Source of the DNA: Spiroplasma endosymbiont of Clivina fossor
GTDB taxonomy: Bacteria; Bacillota_I; Bacilli_A; Mycoplasmatales; Nriv7
Reading direction: 5' to 3'
Length of the DNA stretch: 64,000 nt
Assembly (NCBI RefSeq): GCF_964031115.1
Contig: NZ_OZ035006.1
Location: forward strand, 372,001-436,000
Shown one piece after another: positions 352 to 14,033 of the stretch. The notes beneath the pieces are model-generated. The model saw only the letters and a program-made list of their open reading frames with translations, was not told where the DNA came from and searched no databases. The stretch's first letter is position 1, and each line of letters starts with the position of its first letter. The position numbers and the translations under genes were made by a program.

Positions 352-1157
352 CTAAATGTGAATCTTACCATTGCGTTAAAAATGGACATAATTCAGAAGG
401 AAAACAAAAATATTTATGTAAAAATTGCCGTGCAAGTTTTGACGCTTTTCGTAATCATTTTATTTATTGAAGTCATTTAAATTATGAACAATGAAATTTA
501 TTGATTCAAATTTCATTGCTGGGGCAATCTAGTAAAACAATTTTTCGTTTTATTAAAACTACATTAAAAACTGCTTGATATAATCGTCAAAAATTAATGA
601 AATCAAAACAATTAGAAAATACCCAATTAAAATTTAAAAAATTATCTGGTAAAATCCAAATCGATGAAACATTTATTAAAGAAATCCATAAAGGAAATTT
701 CAAATATAAAACTGATCCACGAAGAATTCACCTTGACCCATTCGCAACTAATACTAAATGCTGTATTCAAATGGCAATTGATAATAATAACAATATTTAT
801 GTTAAATTCACAAACACCAAACGTTTACAAAAACAATGAGTTATTGAAAATATGAACAAAGAATTAATTAACGAAAATTCAATTATTACTTCTGATATGC
901 AAAAATTATATTTTTTAGTAGCAAAACAAACAAATTCTACTTTATGTGTAACTAAAACAACAATTAATCCTGAAGCTAGTTATCGTAACTTAAATAAAAT
1001 CAGTAAATTACAATCTAGTCTTAAAGAAGCCTTAATTCATTATCATGGTTTAGGTTTTACTAATATTCAAAATTATTTAAATCTCTGAAAATGAAAATAC
1101 CAACATAAGGGTTTAACTCCAAACCAACAAACAGCGGTATTATATTTTAATGTATAA
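352..1157 (+). pseudogene. IS1595-like A transposase, N-terminus missing
   Basis: The reading frame is open (code 4) from the second half of the zinc ribbon to the normal stop TAA at 1155-1157. It keeps IDETFIKEIHKGN and the later TSDMQ motif. The first 50 or so codons and the 5' terminal repeat are missing. The 3' terminal repeat of the element ends near 1257 and adjoins a phage-terminus module. Confidence 0.85.
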
Positions 1158-1257
1158 AAAAGTTAAAGTAAAAATAGTAATTTTACATAAAAGCCTTTTA
1201 AAATTATCAAGTTGATGATTTTTTTTTTATTTTATCAAGAGTTTTCGACAAAATTAA

Positions 1258-1452
1258 AATAAAAAATTATTTTAATGTTGTTTTTATAAGCATTTTACTT
1301 AGTTTTTATAACCTTTTATTAAGATTATGTTTGTTAATATTAAATATTTTGTTTTATTACTTATTTTTCAAATAAAACGATAATTAAATTGTAGTTACTT
1401 TTCTTTCAAAATTAATCAAATATTTTTCCACCTAACAAAACTTTACGCGTCC
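1258..1452 (+). repeat. Plectrovirus right-terminus module (R)
   Basis: A non-coding block of about 195 bp ending in CCTAACAAAACTTTACGCGTCC-type sequence (last bases ACGCGTCC). Near-identical blocks lie at 6095-6199 (truncated), 13325-13520 (inverted), 36391-36586 and 43037-43216. Sequence identity stops at GCGTCC each time, so GCGTCC marks an element end. Confidence 0.75.
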
Positions 1453-1465
1453 ATTATCATATATT

Positions 1466-2533
1466 AGACTTCTTGCAAAATTAATTTAAAATATAATTGA
1501 ATTGTTGTTTTTAATAAAAAGGTGGAATTTAAATGAAATTTAAAAAAAATAATCAAATAAGTGATAAAAATTTTTTAAGATTAACTGGTATTAAACATAC
1601 TACTTTTAATAAAATGCTAGAAATTTTAAAAATAGAAGAATTAAAAAAGAGATTTCGTCGCGGAAGAACCAATAAATTATCATTAGAAAATCGTATTTTA
1701 ATGACTTTAGAATATTGAAGAGAATATAGAACTTATTTTCATATTGCAAAAAGTTATGATATTAGTGAAAGTAGTTGTTATAGAAATATCAAATGAATTG
1801 AAGACACTTTAATAAAACACCCTAATTTTCAACAACTTACTGGTCAAAAATCACTATTAAAAGATTATTTCAAAGATAAGACTGTTATAATTGATGTAAC
1901 TGAAAGCCAAATCCAACGCCCAAAAAAAGACAAAAACAGCACTACTCAGGAAAAAAGAAAAAACACACAATAAAAACACAAGTTATAATTGAAAAAGATA
2001 GTAAAAAAATTATTAGTTCTGATTTTTCTTATGGTAAAAACCATGACTTTAAAATTTTAAAAGATTCAAAAATTAAATTTTTACCAGAAACAACTGTTTT
2101 AGTGGATTTAGGTTATCAAGGCATACAAAAAATTAATCATAATGTTTTAATTCCTAAAAGAAAATCAAAGAAAAACCCTTTAAATAAAGAAGAAAAGCAA
2201 AATAATGAGCGAATTTCAAAAATGAGAATTGTTATTGAAAATGTTTTTGCTATACTTAAAAAATTTAAAATTATTAGTGAAAAATATCGAAATCGTAGAA
2301 AAAGATTTGCTTTAAGATTTAATTTAATAGCTTCAATTTATAATTTACAACTATTAGTTTAAATATATTTGATAATTTAAAATTTCAGTCTTTTTTTATT
2401 GTAAATAATAATTTTTATTATGTTTTAATGACAAAATATTTGTAAAAATAATCTAAAAATTATTTTAATAACACTTTTATATTTATTTTAAATTTAAAAA
2501 TTATAATTATCATATTAATTTTGCAAGAAGTCT
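1466..2533 (+). mobile_element. IS5-family (ISL2-like) element, copy 1
   Basis: A 1068-bp element bounded by AGACTTCTTGCAAAATTAAT and its inverse, flanked by a 3-bp ATT direct repeat. It sits just upstream of the asnS-type promoter. The ANT target repeat and the transposase type match the ISL2 subgroup of IS5 as I remember it. Confidence 0.92.
1533..2362 (+). CDS. IS5-family transposase, made by -1 frameshift
   Basis: DDE transposase made from two overlapping frames. The first frame (1533-1973, 146 aa) starts after AAAGGTGGAA and holds an N-terminal helix-turn-helix-like part and the first catalytic Asp (IIDVTE, about residue 121). The second frame is -1 to it and supplies YSGKKKKHTIKTQ, the second Asp (VDLGYQG, about 192) and the Glu (IENVF, about 236). 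The motif R-P-K-K then H-T-I-K is only continuous if ribosomes slip back on the A7 run at 1922-1928, giving about 276 aa. All complete copies in the window keep the same A7, so the shift is a conserved mechanism and not decay. Family assignment is by motif. Confidence 0.9.
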
Positions 2534-2554
2534 ATTATATAAAATTATATGTGT

Positions 2555-2560
2555 TATAAT
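2555..2560 (+). promoter_or_regulatory. -10 box of the asnS-type promoter
   Basis: TATAAT 42 bp before the ATG at 2602. The same promoter lies before the intact asnS (minus strand, near 12218). No good -35 is visible. Confidence 0.5.
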
Positions 2561-2601
2561 TAGGAAAAATCTTATTCATTTTGAAAAGAGGGAAAATATT
2601 A

Positions 2602-3849
2602 ATGTTAATTAAAAAACTTTATGAAACATATAAAGCCCTTGTTGGTCAAGAAATTACTTTAAAAGGTTGAGTACGAACTAACCGCGATTCTGGTAAAGTA
2701 GGTTTTATTAGTTTAAATGATGGTAGTTATTTGGACAGTATTCAAGTTGTTTATAATCAAGAAATTAGAACTTTTAATGAAATTAAAAGTTTGCGAACAG
2801 GTTCTTCAATTGCAGTAACAGGAGTATTAGTTTTGCCAGATAAAGGTAAGGAATTGTTTGAAATTAAAGCAACAAATATAAAAATATATAATAATGCTGT
2901 GGAACAATATCCATTACAAAAAAAAGAACATTCTAATGATAATAATAAGTTAGAAGTAACATTAAATAGTATTTTAAAACAAAAGGATAAAGATTATGAA
3001 ATTATTATTGTGGATGATAAAGCAAAAGATGATACTCTAGAATATATTACTAAATTCTTTCAAGAGCATAGTGATACTATTAAAGTTATTAGTAGTTGAA
3101 AAGAAATTGAAACCGCTAATGCTTGAAATTTAGTATTAAGTAATGCTAAAGGAACTTATGTTTTATTTTTACAACCAGGATATAAATTAATAAATAATTT
3201 TATGGAAAATATTATCCAAGAAATTAATAATAATGATGAACCTGATTTAATTGAATTTATGGTTCAATATTCTAATGTTTATCATCATATTTCTTCACGA
3301 AGATTAAAAAATAATAATTTGTATCATCCACTTTTAAATCGGGAAGTCTTTGCTTTAATTCATCATTCACTATTTAATAAGTTATTTAAAAGAAAGATTA
3401 TTACTAGTCATAAAATTACTTTTCGTCGTTCTAATCGTTTTGATTTATTATTTATTTATAAAATATTGCCGTGAATTGAAACTTTATATACGAGCACTAA
3501 AATATTAGTAGATATTGAAATTGAGCCGTTCTTGAATTTTAATAGTTTTGATTTTTTAAAGCAATGAGTTCATATTTATAACTATTATAAGCAAATAAAC
3601 TTAGCACGAGAGTTAATTGAAGAATTAGAATATGCATTTGTTCGCTTTCATTACTATACATTTTTAAAAGTTATTGCTCCAACAGGAAATAAAGTATTAG
3701 TTAAAAAAGCTATTCAAGAAGTTACAAATAAAGTTACGAAAAGATTTCCTCACTGAGAAAAAAATCAATATCTCAATTTAGTACCAGATGATTTGTTCAA
3801 TAAAGATGTTGCTAAAGATTGAAAAAAATATTTAAAGAATTTTGTTTAA
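2602..3849 (+). CDS. Chimeric protein: AsnRS N-terminal domain fused to family 2 glycosyltransferase
   Basis: 415 aa in code 4, start ATG after GAAAAGAGGGAAAA. Residues 1-112 are the OB-fold anticodon-binding domain of asparaginyl-tRNA synthetase, nearly identical to the intact asnS at 10817-12175 (one Thr/Ile change seen). After the shared KKEHSN the sequence changes to a GT-A glycosyltransferase lacking its first strand: NNKLEVTLNSILKQ, EIIIVDDKAKDDT, then a long C-terminal region. The junction lies in AATGA, common to both parents. The next gene overlaps by one base, as in an operon. The GT part probably acted on membrane or surface glycolipid (inference). The fusion uses the asnS promoter and start; whether it makes a working enzyme is unknown. 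Confidence 0.85.
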
Positions 3850-4598
3850 TGGATATTATGAAAATTAAAACTATTAGTAGTGATAATGACACTATAAGAA
3901 AAAAAAAGCCATATTTTTTAGTAAAACTTTGAAAAGTAATTTTTGCTAGAGTGATTGATGATGTAATTATCAGTATGATTATTTTTATTATTACTTGGGG
4001 TATTTATCAAAATCAATATCTTAATGACTGACAAAAAGCAATTATTAATCATTTCAGTGCATTGTCATTATTAATGTCTTATTTTGTTATGATGCCATAT
4101 TTTTGTCAAGGTAGAACAATAGCAAAATTTATTTTTTGTTTTAAATTAATCAAAAAAGGTCAAAATAAGCTTCGGATTTGAGATTTATTATATCGGGAAT
4201 TGTTTATTACAATTATTCCGTGAGTAATTTTGATTATTAGTAATTTATTTGTTAGCTTAGTTTTTAAATATCCAATTTTTATTTTTAATTATCAAAACAT
4301 TTTTGTAATTACTAAACCACAACATTCTTTACCGTTAGCTGTAACAATTACATTAAGATTAATGGGATTATTTTATTTATTATGATATGGTTCATTAATG
4401 TTACTTTATAAGTTTGATGTTAAAAATCAATTATTCTTTGATCGCTATTTACATATTTATATTGTTAATATTCGTTATCATCAAGAGAAAAAGCAAGAAA
4501 AAGAAAAATTACAAGATAATAAAATTCATATTCATTTAGAAGAGTCTTTACCGGGAACTATTGATAGTAAAGAATTAAAAGCAATTGAAGAGTTATAA
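3849..4598 (+). CDS. RDD-family membrane protein
   Basis: 249 aa. The ATG overlaps the stop of the preceding gene (TAATG), so the two are probably translationally coupled. The sequence KVIFARVIDDVIISMII gives the R-x-x-D-D signature of RDD proteins. Several hydrophobic segments follow (about residues 40-55, 75-95, 120-150, 175-200), with a highly charged C-terminal tail rich in K, E and Q after about residue 215. Function unknown; RDD proteins are small polytopic membrane proteins, sometimes linked to ion or compatible-solute transport. Confidence 0.75.
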
Positions 4599-4610: not shown

Positions 4611-4944
4611 ATGAATATAAACCATTTAAATGAAGAACAAAAATTAGCAGTTTTAAGTAAGTAGTGAAGGCGCTAATAGAATTATAGCTGGTGCGGGAAG
4701 TGGGAAGTGGCAAAACAAGAGTTATTATTTATAAAATTGCTCATTTAATTCATAATTTGGCCATTAGTAGTAATCAAATTTTAGCGGTAACTTTTACTAA
4801 TAAGGCAGCCAATGAAATGAAAAGTCGATTAAATGAATTGGTTGGCGATCAATCTAAATATACATGAGTTCATACATATCATGCCTTTTGTGTTCGGGTT
4901 TTAAGAAATGATATTGTGGTTTTGGGATATACAAAAGATTTTTT
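4611..4944 (+). pseudogene. pcrA: UvrD/PcrA-type helicase, 5' fragment, frameshifted and IS-truncated
   Basis: Begins MNINHLNEEQKLAVLS, the Q-motif region of UvrD/PcrA helicases, then AGAGSGKTRV (Walker A) and [16 protein letters not shown] (motif Ia). Two small tandem duplications shift the frame: about 4 nt at AGTAAGTAGTGAAG (4654-4667) and 7 nt inside the Walker A codons (AGTGGGAAGTGG). The gene is then cut by an IS1595-like element at 4945. The remaining two thirds are not in the window. It follows the RDD gene by 12 bp with GGAGTAGAAG as ribosome site. Confidence 0.85.
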
Positions 4945-6085
4945 TAATTTTGTCGAAAACTCTTGATAAAATAAAAAAAATCATCAACTTGATAATTTTA
5001 AAAGGCTTTTATGTAAAATTACTATTTTTACTTTAACTTTTTTTATACATTAAAATATAATACCGCTGTTTGTTGGTTTGGAGTTAAACCCTTATGTTGG
5101 TATTTTCATTTTCAGAGATTTAAATAATTTTGAATATTAGTAAAACCTAAACCATGATAATGAATTAAGGCTTCTTTAAGACTAGATTGTAATTTACTGA
5201 TTTTATTTAAGTTACGATAACTAGCTTCAGGATTAATTGTTGTTTTAGTTACACATAAAGTAGAATTTGTTTGTTTTGCTACTAAAAAATATAATTTTTG
5301 CATATCAGAAGTAATAATTGAATTTTCGTTAATTAATTCTTTGTTCATATTTTCAATAACTCATTGTTTTTGTAAACGTTTGGTGTTTGTGGTTTTAACA
5401 TAAATATTGTTATTATTATCAATTGCCATTTGAATACAGCATTTAGTATTAGTTGCGAATGGGTCAAGGTGAATTCTTCGTGGATCAGTTTTATATTTGA
5501 AATTTCCTTTATGGATTTCTTTAATAAAAGTTTCATCGATTTGGATTTTACCAGATAATTTTTTAAATTTTAATTGGGTATTTTCTAATTGTTTTGATTT
5601 CATTAATTTTTGACGATTATATCAAGCAGTTTTTAATGTAGTTTTAATAAAACGAGAAATTGTTTTACTAGATTGCCCCAGCAATGAAATTTGAATCAAT
5701 AAATTTCATTGTTCATAATTTAAATGACTTCAATAAATAAAATGATTACGAAAAGCGTCAAAACTTGCACGGCAATTTTTACATAAATATTTTTGTTTTC
5801 CTTCTGAATTATGTCCATTTTTAACGCAATGGTAAGATTCACATTTAGGGCATTTAATACCTTGTGCTCTAAATTTTTGATCAATTTCATTTAAACGTTT
5901 TTGTTTTTTTATTAATTCTGCTTGTTGTTTGATTTTTTCATAAAATTCTAAAAATTGATCATCTGTTAAAGTATTTACTAGTTCTTGAATTATTTTTTCC
6001 ATAATTATTATCCACCTCTATCATATTAAAAATATACCTAAAATTAAGTATATTCAATAAATATCAAGAGTTTTCGACAAAATTA
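4945..6085 (-). mobile_element. IS1595-like A, complete copy
   Basis: About 1141 bp with terminal inverted repeats of about 24 bp beginning TAATTTTGTCGAAAAC. It encodes one transposase (5043-6002). The flanks do not form a target repeat here: pcrA lies on one side and a truncated R module on the other, so the ends have been rearranged. Confidence 0.88.
5043..6002 (-). CDS. IS1595-like transposase (type A)
   Basis: 319 aa, open in code 4. Start ATG at 6002 preceded by AGAGGTGGATAATAATT. The N-terminus has a four-cysteine zinc ribbon (C51, C54 ... C74, C77). The catalytic core shows IQIDETFIKEIHKGN (Asp about 156), IITSDMQKLYF (Asp about 233) and a C-terminal YHGLGFTNIQNYLNLW. A zinc ribbon followed by an ISXO2-like DDE core is the plan of IS1595-family transposases. 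The 8-bp target duplication inferred elsewhere in the window agrees. The family name is from memory of motifs, not a search. Confidence 0.8.
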
Positions 6086-6199: not shown

Positions 6200-6357
6200 T
6201 ATTAAAATGATAAAATAAATATATTACTAAAACATGAGGTTAAAATTATGGAAATTACTCAAATTAAAAATCCCCTACCAAGAAAGTTTAAACGACTATC
6301 ATTTTTTAGTTTAATTATCATTATTTTAACTTTCCCTATTTTAATATGATATCTATT

Positions 6358-7425
6358 AGACTTCTTGCAAAATTAATATGATAATTATAATTTTTAAATT
6401 TAAAATAAATATAAAAGTGTTATTAAAATAATTTTTAGATTATTTTTACAAATATTTTGTCATTAAAACATAATAAAAATTATTATTTACAATAAAAAAA
6501 GACTGAAATTTTAAATTATCAAATATATTTAAACTAATAGTTGTAAATTATAAATTGAAGCTATTAAATTAAATCTTAAAGCAAATCTTTTTCTACGATT
6601 TCGATATTTTTCACTAATAATTTTAAATTTTTTAAGTATAGCAAAAACATTTTCAATAACAATTCTCATTTTTGAAATTCGCTCATTATTTTGCTTTTCT
6701 TCTTTATTTAAAGGGTTTTTCTTTGATTTTCTTTTAGGAATTAAAACATTATGATTAATTTTTTGTATGCCTTGATAACCTAAATCCACTAAAACAGTTG
6801 TTTCTGGTAAAAATTTAATTTTTGAATCTTTTAAAATTTTAAAGTCATGGTTTTTACCATAAGAAAAATCAGAACTAATAATTTTTTTACTATCTTTTTC
6901 AATTATAACTTGTGTTTTTATTGTGTGTTTTTTCTTTTTTCCTGAGTAGTGCTGTTTTTGTCTTTTTTTGGGCGTTGGATTTGGCTTTCAGTTACATCAA
7001 TTATAACAGTCTTATCTTTGAAATAATCTTTTAATAGTGATTTTTGACCAGTAAGTTGTTGAAAATTAGGGTGTTTTATTAAAGTGTCTTCAATTCATTT
7101 GATATTTCTATAACAACTACTTTCACTAATATCATAACTTTTTGCAATATGAAAATAAGTTCTATATTCTCTTCAATATTCTAAAGTCATTAAAATACGA
7201 TTTTCTAATGATAATTTATTGGTTCTTCCGCGACGAAATCTCTTTTTTAATTCTTCTATTTTTAAAATTTCTAGCATTTTATTAAAAGTAGTATGTTTAA
7301 TACCAGTTAATCTTAAAAAATTTTTATCACTTATTTGATTATTTTTTTTAAATTTCATTTAAATTCCACCTTTTTATTAAAAACAACAATTCAATTATAT
7401 TTTAAATTAATTTTGCAAGAAGTCT
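6358..7425 (-). mobile_element. IS5-family element, copy 2
   Basis: Complete 1068-bp element in minus orientation with ATT on both sides. Removing it and one ATT rejoins the hydrolase frame across WYLLYMCCKNF. Confidence 0.92.
6529..7358 (-). CDS. IS5-family transposase, -1 frameshift
   Basis: Identical in structure to the copy at 1533-2362: first frame from the ATG at 7358, second frame ending at 6529, with the A7 slip site kept. Confidence 0.88.
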
Positions 7426-7908
7426 ATTATATATGTGTTGTAAAAATTTTTATGTTATGCCTCGTTTCACAAATACATTTCATCGATTTGGTAAATATGA
7501 CCCCTTATATCATGGCACTGAAAAATATAGTTTAACTGTTTTAACTACTGATAGTATTATTAAAAACAATTCTTTAATTGCTTTCAGCACAAAAGAAAAA
7601 AATAATCTCAAATTTCAAGAACATGAAATTATTAATGGTAATACTATTCTTAGCAGTTTAATCTTAAAAAAATTACGGGCCTGTCCAAAATTCTGTGTCT
7701 CGATAATTCATTCTGAATTATACTTAAAAGAAGGAGAACAGAAAATGACAAAAAAAATAAAAAAAAGAACCTGACGCAATTGATAAAGTTGTTGATTATT
7801 TTTTAGAAAATATTGATAATCCACAAGATTTATTTAAAGGCAATACTATTTTTCAGGAATTTACCAAAAAATTAACTGAACGAATGTTAAATACGGAAAT
7901 TAAAGATT

Positions 7909-8976
7909 AGACTTCTTGCAAAATTAATATGATAATTATAATTTTTAAATTTAAAATAAATATAAAAGTGTTATTAAAATAATTTTTAGATTATTTTTAC
8001 AAATATTTTGTCATTAAAACATAATAAAAATTATTATTTACAATAAAAAAAGACTGAAATTTTAAATTATCAAATATATTTAAACTAATAGTTGTAAATT
8101 ATAAATTGAAGCTATTAAATTAAATCTTAAAGCAAATCTTTTTCTACGATTTCGATATTTTTCACTAATAATTTTAAATTTTTTAAGTATAGCAAAAACA
8201 TTTTCAATAACAATTCTCATTTTTGAAATTCGCTCATTATTTTGCTTTTCTTCTTTATTTAAAGGGTTTTTCTTTGATTTTCTTTTAGGAATTAAAACAT
8301 TATGATTAATTTTTTGTATGCCTTGATAACCTAAATCCACTAAAACAGTTGTTTCTGGTAAAAATTTAATTTTTGAATCTTTTAAAATTTTAAAGTCATG
8401 GTTTTTACCATAAGAAAAATCAGAACTAATAATTTTTTTACTATCTTTTTCAATTATAACTTGTGTTTTTATTGTGTGTTTTTTCTTTTTTCCTGAGTAG
8501 TGCTGTTTTTGTCTTTTTTTGGGCGTTGGATTTGGCTTTCAGTTACATCAATTATAACAGTCTTATCTTTGAAATAATCTTTTAATAGTGATTTTTGACC
8601 AGTAAGTTGTTGAAAATTAGGGTGTTTTATTAAAGTGTCTTCAATTCATTTGATATTTCTATAACAACTACTTTCACTAATATCATAACTTTTTGCAATA
8701 TGAAAATAAGTTCTATATTCTCTTCAATATTCTAAAGTCATTAAAATACGATTTTCTAATGATAATTTATTGGTTCTTCCGCGACGAAATCTCTTTTTTA
8801 ATTCTTCTATTTTTAAAATTTCTAGCATTTTATTAAAAGTAGTATGTTTAATACCAGTTAATCTTAAAAAATTTTTATCACTTATTTGATTATTTTTTTT
8901 AAATTTCATTTAAATTCCACCTTTTTATTAAAAACAACAATTCAATTATATTTTAAATTAATTTTGCAAGAAGTCT
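7909..8976 (-). mobile_element. IS5-family element, copy 3
   Basis: Complete 1068-bp element, minus orientation, ATT/ATT target repeat. Comparison with the uninterrupted IS256 at 23786 (AAAGATTATCTTG) proves the 3-bp duplication and the exact ends AGACTTC...GAAGTCT. Confidence 0.94.
8080..8909 (-). CDS. IS5-family transposase, -1 frameshift
   Basis: Same as 1533-2362. Start at 8909, second-frame stop at 8080, A7 slip site kept. Confidence 0.88.
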
Positions 8977-10416
8977 ATTATCTTGAAACTGATGAGAATC
9001 ATAATAAAAGAAATGGCAACACACAAAAAACCATTATTACTAAAAATGGTTCAATCGCAATTGATGTACCAAGAGATCGAAATAGTACTTTTGAACCAGT
9101 AATTATTCCGAAAAGACAAAGAAGATTTGATAACTTTGATCAAAAAGTAATTTCTTTATATGCAAGAGGAATGACAATTTCTGATATCAAAGCACAATTG
9201 CAAGAATTCTATCACGGAGCAGAAATTTCAGAAAGTTTAATTAGTCAAATAACTGATGATGTTATTGAAGAAGTTAAAATGTGACAAACTAAACCTTTAG
9301 AGAAGATTTATCCGATTGTTTATTTTGATTGTATTGTTGTTAAAGTAAAGCAAGATAAACGAATAATAAATAAAGCAGTTTATCTTGCCTTAGGAATTAA
9401 TTTAGATGGTTTAAAAGATATTTTAGGAATGTGAATTAGCGAGAATGAGGGAGTCAAATTTTGACTTAATAATCTCCTCTTACGGAAATGAAAAATCGTG
9501 GCTTACAAGATATTCTTGTTGCTTGTAGCGATAATTTAACTGGAATGTCTGATGCAATAGAAGCTGTGTTCCCAAAAACACAGCACCAATTATGCATCGT
9601 TCATCAAATTCGTAATAGTTTAAAATTTGTCCCTTACAAAGATCGCAAACTTGTAGCTAATGATTTAAAATCAATTTATACAGCAATTAATGAAGAAATA
9701 GCGCTAGTTGCTTTAGATCATTTTTCAGAAAAATGAAATAAAAAGTATCCACAAATTACTAAATCATGAAAAAATAACTGAAATAATTTAATAATTTTTC
9801 TTGAATATCCTCAAGAATTTAGAAGGATTATTTACACAAAACTAATGCGATTGAATCTGTTAATAGTCAACTAAGAAAAGTCATTAAGAATAAAAAGATT
9901 TTTCCTAATGATGCATCAGTTTTTAAAATATCTTATTTAGCATTTCAAAATATGGTTAAGAAATGAACGATGCCAATTCAAAATTGGGGTAGTGCAATTT
10001 CACATTTAATGATAAAATTTGAGGACAGAGTGAATTTAAGTTAATTACTTAGAGACACAGTTAATTGTACAGTCCCTTAATTTTTAATTTTTTAACCCTA
10101 ATAATAAAAATAACAAATGAGTTATTGCCATGCACGGATGAACAGAAAACAAATTTTTAGCTTTAAGAATGACAAGACATTTTTTATAATGAAGGATACA
10201 ATATTATATCATTTGATGCACGCAACCACGGTAAATCTAGTACTAAAACTATTGGTTTTGGTTTTTTTGAAAAACATGATTTAGCAATGGTAATAAAATA
10301 TTTACATAAGAACTTTACTATCCAATCAATTGGTTTAATTGGTAATTCAATGGGTGGAAGTACTATTATTGAATTCATTAAAGAATACAGTGAAAAAATT
10401 AAAGAATTAAAAGCTT

Positions 10417-10547
10417 TAATTTTATAGATAAGTATTGATATTTCAATAAAACCTTGATTTTGCTGGGTTTTTAGTAAAACCGTGTTTTTACAAATCCCTA
10501 TATTTAATAAGGGTTTTTTACCCTGTCAATACTTATCTTTAAAATTA
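10417..10547. mobile_element. Candidate MITE with IS1595-like B ends
   Basis: A 131-bp element whose two ends are inverted repeats of about 22 bp (TAATTTTATAGATAAG... against its reverse, one or two mismatches). The inner AGATAAGTATTGA is identical in both arms. The same end sequence lies at 21187-21211, the outer end of the IS1595-like B element. The interior has hairpins (AAATCCCTATATTTAATAAGGG) and no ORF of its own. It replaces part of the hydrolase gene. Confidence 0.75.
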
Positions 10548-10784
10548 GAAAAAAAATGTGCTACTATCCCATTACTAATTATTCATGATGAAAAAGATAA
10601 TTTTGTTCCATTATATATGGCTTATGATATTTATCATCATAAAATTCGTGATGAAGAAAAACAAATTAGTGAACTATTAATTATAAAAGATGCTGGTCAT
10701 GTACAATCAATTACAACTGATTATGACCTCTATACAAGTAAAACTTTATTATTTGCTAAAATACACGAAGAAATTACTAATTAA

Positions 10785-10818
10785 AAAGATAAAGTTTTAA
10801 GAAACTTTATCTTTTTTT
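10785..10818. terminator. Bidirectional terminator between hydrolase remnant and asnS
   Basis: AAAGATAAAGTTT, loop TAAG, AAACTTTATCTTT and a T run. The genes converge on it and A/T runs flank both sides. Confidence 0.8.
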
Positions 10819-12175
10819 AAAATTCTAAATTATTAGGTACTCGTGGAAATGGTAAAACATCACGAATATTTGTCATCCCTGTCAAATACATAATTAATCG
10901 TTCTAATCCTAAACCAAACCCACCACTTGGAGCATACCCATACTGTCTTAAATTTAAATATCATTGAAAATCCTTAATATCTAAATTAGCCATTTGCATT
11001 TTTGCTAATAACTTTTCATAATTATCTTCCCTTTGACTACCACCAATTAATTCGCCAATTCCTGGGACTAATAAATCCATTGCTTGAACAGTTTTATTAT
11101 CCTCATTAGTTTTCATATAAAATGCTTTAATAACTTGTGGATAATTAGTAATAAATGTTGGCTTATTAGTTAATTGTTCACATAAATATCTTTCATGTTC
11201 AGTTTGTAAATCCATTCCTCAATGAATATTTTGATTTTCAAAACGGTCTTTAACTTTAATTAATTCCATAATTGTATCATCATAAGTCATAACTACAAAT
11301 TTAACAGTTACTACTGTCTTTAGTTTATCTAATAAATTATTATCAACATTATCATTTAGAAACTTTAATTCGTTTTTATTATTTTCTAAAATATAATTAA
11401 TAATATATTTAATTAATTCTTCTCCTAATTTGATATTTTCTTCTAACGAACTATATGCTACCTCTGGTTCTACCATTCAAAATTCAGCTACATGCCGAGA
11501 AGTATGAGACTTCTCGGCTCGAAAAGTTGGTCCAAAAGTATAAACACGATTAAATGCTTGTGTATATGCTTCAGCATTTAATTGTCCAGAAACAGTTAAA
11601 TTAGCCTTTTTAGAAAAGAAATCTTGTTGATAATTATTATCTTCTTCACGAGTTGTCACAATAAATGCTTCACCTGCACCTTCAGCATCATTACTAGTAA
11701 TAATTGGCGAATGCAAATATAAAAAGTCATTTCTTTGAAAAAAGCAATGAATCGCATAACTAACACTACTTCTAATCTTAAAAATAGCTCAAAACTTATT
11801 AGTTCGAGCTCGCAAATGAGCAATTTCTCGTAAATATTCATTAGAATGTTCTTTTTTTTGTAATGGATATTGTTCCACAGCATTATTATATATTTTTATA
11901 TTTGTTGCTTTAATTTCAAACAATTCCTTACCTTTATCTGGCAAAACTAATACTCCTGTTACTGCAATTGAAGAACCTGTTCGCAAACTTTTAATTTCAT
12001 TAAAAATTCTAATTTCTTGATTATAAACAACTTGAATACTGTCCAAATAACTACCATCATTTAAACTAATAAAACCTACTTTACCAGAATCGCGGTTAGT
12101 TCGTACTCAACCTTTTAAAGTAATTTCTTGACCAACAAGGGCTTTATATGTTTCATAAAGTTTTTTAATTAACAT
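10817..12175 (-). CDS. asnS: Asparaginyl-tRNA synthetase
   Basis: 452 aa in code 4, intact. Charges tRNA-Asn with asparagine in the cytosol. The N-terminal OB domain (about residues 1-110, [22 protein letters not shown]) is followed by a class II catalytic core: motif 2 region [20 protein letters not shown] and motif 3 near the C-terminus, [13 protein letters not shown] as read from 10875-10915. Start ATG at 12175 has GAAAAGAGGGAAAA upstream, and its promoter region abuts an IS5. The N-terminal third and the whole upstream region are duplicated at 890-2941. Confidence 0.95.
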
Positions 12176-12243
12176 TAATATTTTCCCTCTTTTCAAAATG
12201 AATAAGATTTTTCCTAATTATAACACATATAATTTTATATAAT

Positions 12244-13311
12244 AGACTTCTTGCAAAATTAATTTAAAATATAATTGAATTGTTGTTTTTAATAAAAAGG
12301 TGGAATTTAAATGAAATTTAAAAAAAATAATCAAATAAGTGATAAAAATTTTTTAAGATTAACTGGTATTAAACATACTACTTTTAATAAAATGCTAGAA
12401 ATTTTAAAAATAGAAGAATTAAAAAAGAGATTTCGTCGCGGAAGAACCAATAAATTATCATTAGAAAATCGTATTTTAATGACTTTAGAATATTGAAGAG
12501 AATATAGAACTTATTTTCATATTGCAAAAAGTTATGATATTAGTGAAAGTAGTTGTTATAGAAATATCAAATGAATTGAAGACACTTTAATAAAACACCC
12601 TAATTTTCAACAACTTACTGGTCAAAAATCACTATTAAAAGATTATTTCAAAGATAAGACTGTTATAATTGATGTAACTGAAAGCCAAATCCAACGCCCA
12701 AAAAAAGACAAAAACAGCACTACTCAGGAAAAAAGAAAAAACACACAATAAAAACACAAGTTATAATTGAAAAAGATAGTAAAAAAATTATTAGTTCTGA
12801 TTTTTCTTATGGTAAAAACCATGACTTTAAAATTTTAAAAGATTCAAAAATTAAATTTTTACCAGAAACAACTGTTTTAGTGGATTTAGGTTATCAAGGC
12901 ATACAAAAAATTAATCATAATGTTTTAATTCCTAAAAGAAAATCAAAGAAAAACCCTTTAAATAAAGAAGAAAAGCAAAATAATGAGCGAATTTCAAAAA
13001 TGAGAATTGTTATTGAAAATGTTTTTGCTATACTTAAAAAATTTAAAATTATTAGTGAAAAATATCGAAATCGTAGAAAAAGATTTGCTTTAAGATTTAA
13101 TTTAATAGCTTCAATTTATAATTTACAACTATTAGTTTAAATATATTTGATAATTTAAAATTTCAGTCTTTTTTTATTGTAAATAATAATTTTTATTATG
13201 TTTTAATGACAAAATATTTGTAAAAATAATCTAAAAATTATTTTAATAACACTTTTATATTTATTTTAAATTTAAAAATTATAATTATCATATTAATTTT
13301 GCAAGAAGTCT
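12244..13311 (+). mobile_element. IS5-family element, copy 4 (upstream of asnS)
   Basis: Complete 1068-bp element with AAT/AAT repeats. It occupies exactly the same target as copy 1 in the duplicated locus, but in the opposite orientation relative to asnS. Confidence 0.93.
12311..13140 (+). CDS. IS5-family transposase, -1 frameshift
   Basis: Same as 1533-2362, divergent from asnS. A7 slip site kept. Confidence 0.88.
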
Positions 13312-13324
13312 AATATATGATAAT

Positions 13325-13520
13325 GGACGCGTAAAGTTTTGTTAGGTGGAAAAATATTTGATTAATTTTGAAAGAAAAGTAACTACAATTTAATTATCGT
13401 TTTATTTGAAAAATAAGTAATAAAACAAAATATTTAATATTAACAAACATAATCTTAATAAAAGGTTATAAAAACTAAGTAAAATGCTTATAAAAACAAC
13501 ATTAAAATAATTTTTTATTT
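13325..13520 (-). repeat. R module, inverted
   Basis: Reverse complement of 1258-1452, starting GGACGCGTAAAG. It lies between IS5 copy 4 and an IS1595-like A fragment, in the same order as the inverted duplicate at 890-2941. Confidence 0.75.
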
Positions 13521-13885
13521 TAATTTTGTCGAAAACTCTTGATAAAATAAAAAAAATCATCAACTTGATAATTTTAAAAGGCTTTTATGTAAAATTACTA
13601 TTTTTACTTTAACTTTTTTATACATTAAAATATAATACCGCTGTTTGTTGGTTTGAAGTTAAACCCTTATGTTGGTATTTTCATTTTCAGAGATTTAAAT
13701 AATTTTGAAAATTAGTAAAACCTAAACCATGATAATGAATTAAGGCTTCTTTAAGACTAGATTGTAATTTACTGATTTTATTTAAGTTACGATAACTAGC
13801 TTCAGGATTAATTGTTGTTTTAGTTACACATAAAGTAGAATTTGTTTGTTTTGCTACTAAAAAATATAATTTTTGCATATCAGAA
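13521..13885 (-). mobile_element. IS1595-like A, 3' fragment
   Basis: Contains the 3' terminal repeat (TAATTTTGTCG at 13521) and the last about 90 codons of the transposase (stop at 13618-13620). It breaks at CAGAA, where it meets a short forward piece of the same IS and then phage module Q. Confidence 0.82.
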
Positions 13886-14033
13886 TTAATTAACGAAAAT
13901 TCAATAATATGATAAAATGGTAACGAATAAAAATGACAATAACAAGAAAGGCAGGGTTAGTTTAGTAATTAAATAATATATAGCTGATTGTTTTACTTCT
14001 TCAAAGCAATACCTAAGAAAACTAAACGCGGCC
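13886..14033 (+). repeat. Plectrovirus-type left-terminus module Q
   Basis: Begins with a forward IS1595 scrap (TTAATTAACGAAAATTCAAT), then about 130 bp containing GAAAGGCAGGGTTAG and ending CCTAAGAAAACTAAACGCGGCC. Copies at 29754-29888 and 40361-40499 end at the same CGCG(A/G)CC. Non-coding. Confidence 0.65.

Follow-up and report, generated by a model that had tools for sequence, protein, structure and literature searches.

The window, a 64,000-nucleotide stretch of the genome of the Spiroplasma endosymbiont of Clivina fossor, carries a 415-codon open reading frame (ORF) that joins the OB-type anticodon-binding domain of AsnRS to the greater part of a GT2-fold protein (Table 1). This ORF stays open under genetic code 4, with 7 TGA codons read as Trp, and Pfam finds both domains in its product: tRNA_anti-codon (OB) at residues 18 to 95 (1.8e-13) and Glycos_transf_2 (PF00535), spanning the nucleotide-binding half, at residues 114 to 254 (9.3e-15). 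The latter match begins only at profile position 10, whereas that of a native GT2 orthologue begins at position 1 (4.6e-16). The initial annotation had described an in-frame fusion with a GT2 part that lacks its first strand, and both points are confirmed by these searches. Its statement that the first 112 residues equal those of the intact AsnRS is correct for 111 of the 112, with Thr in the fusion and Ile in AsnRS at position 57. It had also placed the intact asnS 8 kb away; a separate intact copy is indeed present, with about 7 kb separating the ends of the two ORFs.

The DNA common to the fusion and asnS extends beyond the coding region to include the -10 box, leader, ribosome-binding site (RBS), and start codon, and this leader is conserved in relatives. 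The view that the asnS promoter, RBS, and OB domain have replaced the start of a GT operon is well founded, as the native start and promoter of the GT2 gene are missing and the asnS leader now heads the GT2-RDD unit, in which the stop codon of the fusion and the start of the RDD gene overlap in TTTAATG, as had been annotated. Because it carries the extended -10 element, leader, and RBS of asnS, the fusion is likely to be expressed from these predicted signals, which would also keep the downstream RDD gene on.

Table 1. Positions of the fused ORF, its neighbors, and the arms of the inverted repeat within the window
Feature	Position	Strand	Description
Left outer arm	890..1466	+	Partial IS1595-like element and 237 bp that recur, inverted and unchanged, at 13547-13311
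IS5-family element upstream of the fusion	1467..2532	+	TATTA on both sides
Left inner arm (asnS leader and 5' part)	2533..2939	+	407 bp, 1 mismatch versus 12244-11838
Captured asnS leader	2545..2601	+	Extended -10 TGTTATAAT, RBS GAGGGAAAATATTA ATG; same as before intact asnS
Fused ORF	2602..3849	+	AsnRS OB domain (residues 1-112) in frame with a GT2-fold protein minus its first 10 residues (113-415)
Junction word	2931..2939	+	TTCTAATGA; common to asnS and GT2, equal codon phase in both
RDD-family membrane protein gene	3848..4598	+	Intact; start overlaps the fusion stop codon
pcrA remnant	4611..4945	+	Interrupted by an IS1595-like element after 107 of 713 codons
Intact asnS	10817..12175	-	452 aa; 5' portion forms the opposite arm of the inverted duplication
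Right inner arm (asnS leader and 5' part)	11838..12244	-	Pairs with 2533-2939 (407 bp, 1 mismatch)
IS5-family element before asnS	12245..13310	+	Same target site, opposite orientation relative to the arm
Right outer arm	13311..13908	-	Corresponds in inverted orientation to 890-1466, with a truncated IS1595-like part

Two other genes of this region are interrupted by IS elements. The alpha/beta hydrolase gene that adjoins asnS (positions 6260 to 10748) is split by IS elements into fragments near 6260-6358, 7424-7666, and 10117-10748. The local pcrA, reduced here to a remnant, is degraded in genome G002 too. PcrA-like paralogues of about 640 codons, 83 to 87% identical and one of them nearly full length, are encoded elsewhere in the genome of the C. 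fossor symbiont (G000:C1:1713079-1714995 and 1659622-1662691; loci L034 to L036), and such paralogues are also present in the symbiont of Nebria riversi.

Parental genes in related genomes

The C. fossor symbiont has a single intact asnS, which scores 628 bits in the profile search (the NCBI asnS cut-off is 414), and a single GT2 of this kind. Profile comparison places the class II catalytic domain of AsnRS in the intact protein but not in the fusion. Each of the 4 congeneric genomes carries asnS and GT2 as intact, separate genes, one complete copy of each, the GT2 gene having 315 codons and beginning with MVTISFILTS. A set of 198 genomes of the order yielded no second AsnRS-GT2 fusion (0 of 4 congeners and 0 of 193 others), and none was found in a literature search. 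Within this set the fusion is confined to one genome, without the conservation in more than one lineage that would mark a functional fusion. An ancient two-domain protein was considered and rejected, as no relative has one.

In the symbiont of Nebria riversi, the nearest named relative and the one used for the junction comparison, asnS and GT2 are co-oriented and separated by the hydrolase gene and IS elements. The order GT2>RDD>pcrA is kept in all 18 distant genomes whose gene order was read (two have an extra ORF between RDD and pcrA), and in 11 of these asnS lies directly upstream of GT2. Judging from this distribution, asnS>GT2>RDD>pcrA is an old gene order in which asnS and GT2 are ancestral neighbors, which argues for a deletion rather than for the joining of unrelated genes.

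The residues that the fusion has lost from its GT2 part, MVTISFILTS, constitute strand beta-1. All 22 aligned orthologues possess this strand, and from it (residue 4) onward the native orthologue can be aligned over the nucleotide-binding half with SpsA and heparosan synthase B. AlphaFold2 places it at residues 3 to 9 of the native protein, although the model, built from 3 sequences, has a mean pLDDT of 51.6 and is too weak to be reliable. Elsewhere in the 2.05-Mb genome, there are only chance-level matches to the leader and initial 10 codons of the native GT2. The remainder of the GT2 frame is still open and has only two private amino acid changes in 304 codons; its branch carries 2 synonymous and 2 nonsynonymous private changes, and the split of the species long predates the fusion.

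This GT2-fold family (loci L040 to L057), found order-wide in the asnS-GT2-RDD-pcrA neighborhood, lacks the canonical DxD motif in every orthologue aligned. The corresponding place reads FLQPGY in the fusion and the congeners and x-G-D, PTE, or similar in distant orthologues. Because of this, even complete members of the family may be atypical sugar transferases or lack that activity.

Junction and inverted duplication

In the alignment with relatives, the sequence of the fusion tracks asnS up to the 9-bp word TTCTAATGA and GT2 after it. The same word occurs exactly twice in the 12.9-kb locus of the Nebria riversi symbiont (L038), in asnS at position 1541 and in GT2 at position 6000, that is, 4.46 kb apart on the same strand and in the same codon phase; it covers codons 110 to 113 of asnS and codons 10 to 13 of GT2. 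Chance is unlikely to account for the word that the two genes share at the joint, since only 0.028% of the asnS-by-GT2 position pairs have an identity run of at least 9. The window contains many other copies of TTCTAATGA, most of them within IS5 elements.

The fusion and the intact asnS lie on the two arms of an inverted repeat, beside IS elements, and on each side an IS5-family element flanked by TATTA separates the inner arm from the outer one. The outer arms (1230-1466 and 13547-13311) show 0 differences and continue into IS1595-like sequence. With the IS parts excluded, the arms differ at 1 position in 644 bp, versus ∼2% (18 in 912 bp) between the GT2 genes of this genome and congener G003. 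This low divergence indicates a young duplication, unless the arms have been homogenized by gene conversion. The same IS5-family element is found at identical target sites in both orientations (at 1467-2532, 12245-13310, 22477, 28154, and others), which points to a hot spot for insertion or to inversion of the element at its site. The initial annotation mentioned neither the 9-bp direct repeat, nor the IS-associated inverted duplication, nor the ancestral adjacency of asnS and GT2, and was silent on the inverted orientation of the asnS copy, which makes the two copies face each other.

Origin of the fused ORF

Taken together, the anatomy of the locus and the gene order in relatives indicate that the fusion probably arose through an inverted duplication of asnS followed by a deletion between the 9-bp direct repeats in one of the copies, which captured the asnS promoter and RBS. 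In such a scenario, the asnS region and its upstream flank would have been duplicated in inverted orientation among IS elements, so that the 5' part of asnS was present twice. In the copy retaining the order asnS>...>GT2>RDD>pcrA, a deletion between the TTCTAATGA repeats, of which the junction is observed directly, would then have removed the rest of asnS, anything between the two genes, and the promoter, start, and first 10 codons of GT2. We infer this order of the two steps. The frame would have stayed open because both repeats are in the same codon phase, and the loss of the left asnS would have been tolerated because the inverted copy kept this essential gene intact. The remnant could then be transcribed from the asnS promoter, keeping the downstream RDD gene expressed. 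Its product, with the OB domain complete but the first beta strand missing from its GT-A fold, would probably be inactive as a transferase. Certain observations do count against this account: the GT2 body is open, which recency explains as well as retained function does; the flipped IS element at the same site requires either two insertions into a hot spot or an inversion in place; and the same junction would be left by a one-step template switch.

In that one-step alternative, replication that was copying the asnS 5' region would have switched templates at the 9-bp word to GT2, so that duplication and fusion arose together and no separate deletion was needed. The microhomology at the join and the inner arm of the inverted repeat, which ends exactly at the junction word, are as expected from such an event. 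However, the arm also runs upstream through the IS element and the 237-bp flank, with another IS element, and for two co-oriented ancestral neighbors a plain deletion is enough; a template switch is accordingly an unlikely, though not negligible, source of the fusion. Misassembly at the inverted repeat is distinctly less probable. It would be favored by the location of the junction where a 2-kb inverted repeat ends; this repeat contains an IS element with >40 matches in the genome. Nevertheless, the 9-bp word at the join, which lies within single-copy coding sequence, is too short to act as an overlap in assembly, the arms differ in the orientation of the IS element and at one base, where the fusion has the base of 3 of the 4 relatives, and the assembly contains no native 5' end of GT2.

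The initial annotation also raised the idea of a tRNA-binding domain on a sugar transferase, which would be new if expressed. The 415-codon open frame, the complete OB domain, and the retained asnS promoter and RBS could all be seen as signs of a functional protein whose tRNA-binding OB domain guides the GT2 enzyme or holds it in place. Yet the fusion exists in one genome only, and the near identity of the arms makes it too recent for selection to be visible. Moreover, a glycosyltransferase that binds tRNA is unlikely, because the GT2 gene has lost beta-1, its promoter, and its start and belongs to a family without the canonical DxD. Such a functional protein is therefore to be regarded as highly improbable. 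Even less credence is due to the more specific prediction that the fusion is translated and that its OB domain replaces beta-1 or brings the GT2 part to tRNA, creating a new sugar transferase or regulator that is linked to tRNA or located near the ribosome. The claimed new enzyme activity does not hold up. Being found in one genome only, with arms that differ at one base, the fusion appears to be recent, and its ORF probably arose by accident during genome decay rather than as a new enzyme.

Significance and known systems

With its relatives compared, this locus provides a base-level case of a symbiont genome rich in mobile elements making an open-frame chimera, in which a spare copy of an essential gene would have permitted a microhomology deletion into an old neighbor and the reuse of its promoter. 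Such ORFs will get annotated as novel two-domain proteins, and the present case shows how they can be told from real ones.

Deletion between short direct repeats in co-directional neighbors is a general mechanism of gene fusion. Similarly to such cases, the fusion described here involves co-directional ancestral neighbors, a 9-bp repeat, and missing intervening DNA; unlike them, it involves an inverted duplication, and the essential asnS survives in another copy. Among the GT2 enzymes, SpsA (1qg8/1h7l) and heparosan synthase B (8vh7), to which the native orthologue can be aligned, have the DxD motif that its family lacks, in addition to the first strand lost from the fusion. In another mollicute, Mycoplasma penetrans, MetRS is fused to an alanine-glyoxylate aminotransferase, with the whole aminoacyl-tRNA synthetase retained and both enzymes active (PMC13215547). 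Both fusions place aminoacyl-tRNA synthetase sequence in frame with another enzyme, but that of the C. fossor symbiont has kept only the OB domain of the synthetase and joins it to a truncated partner.
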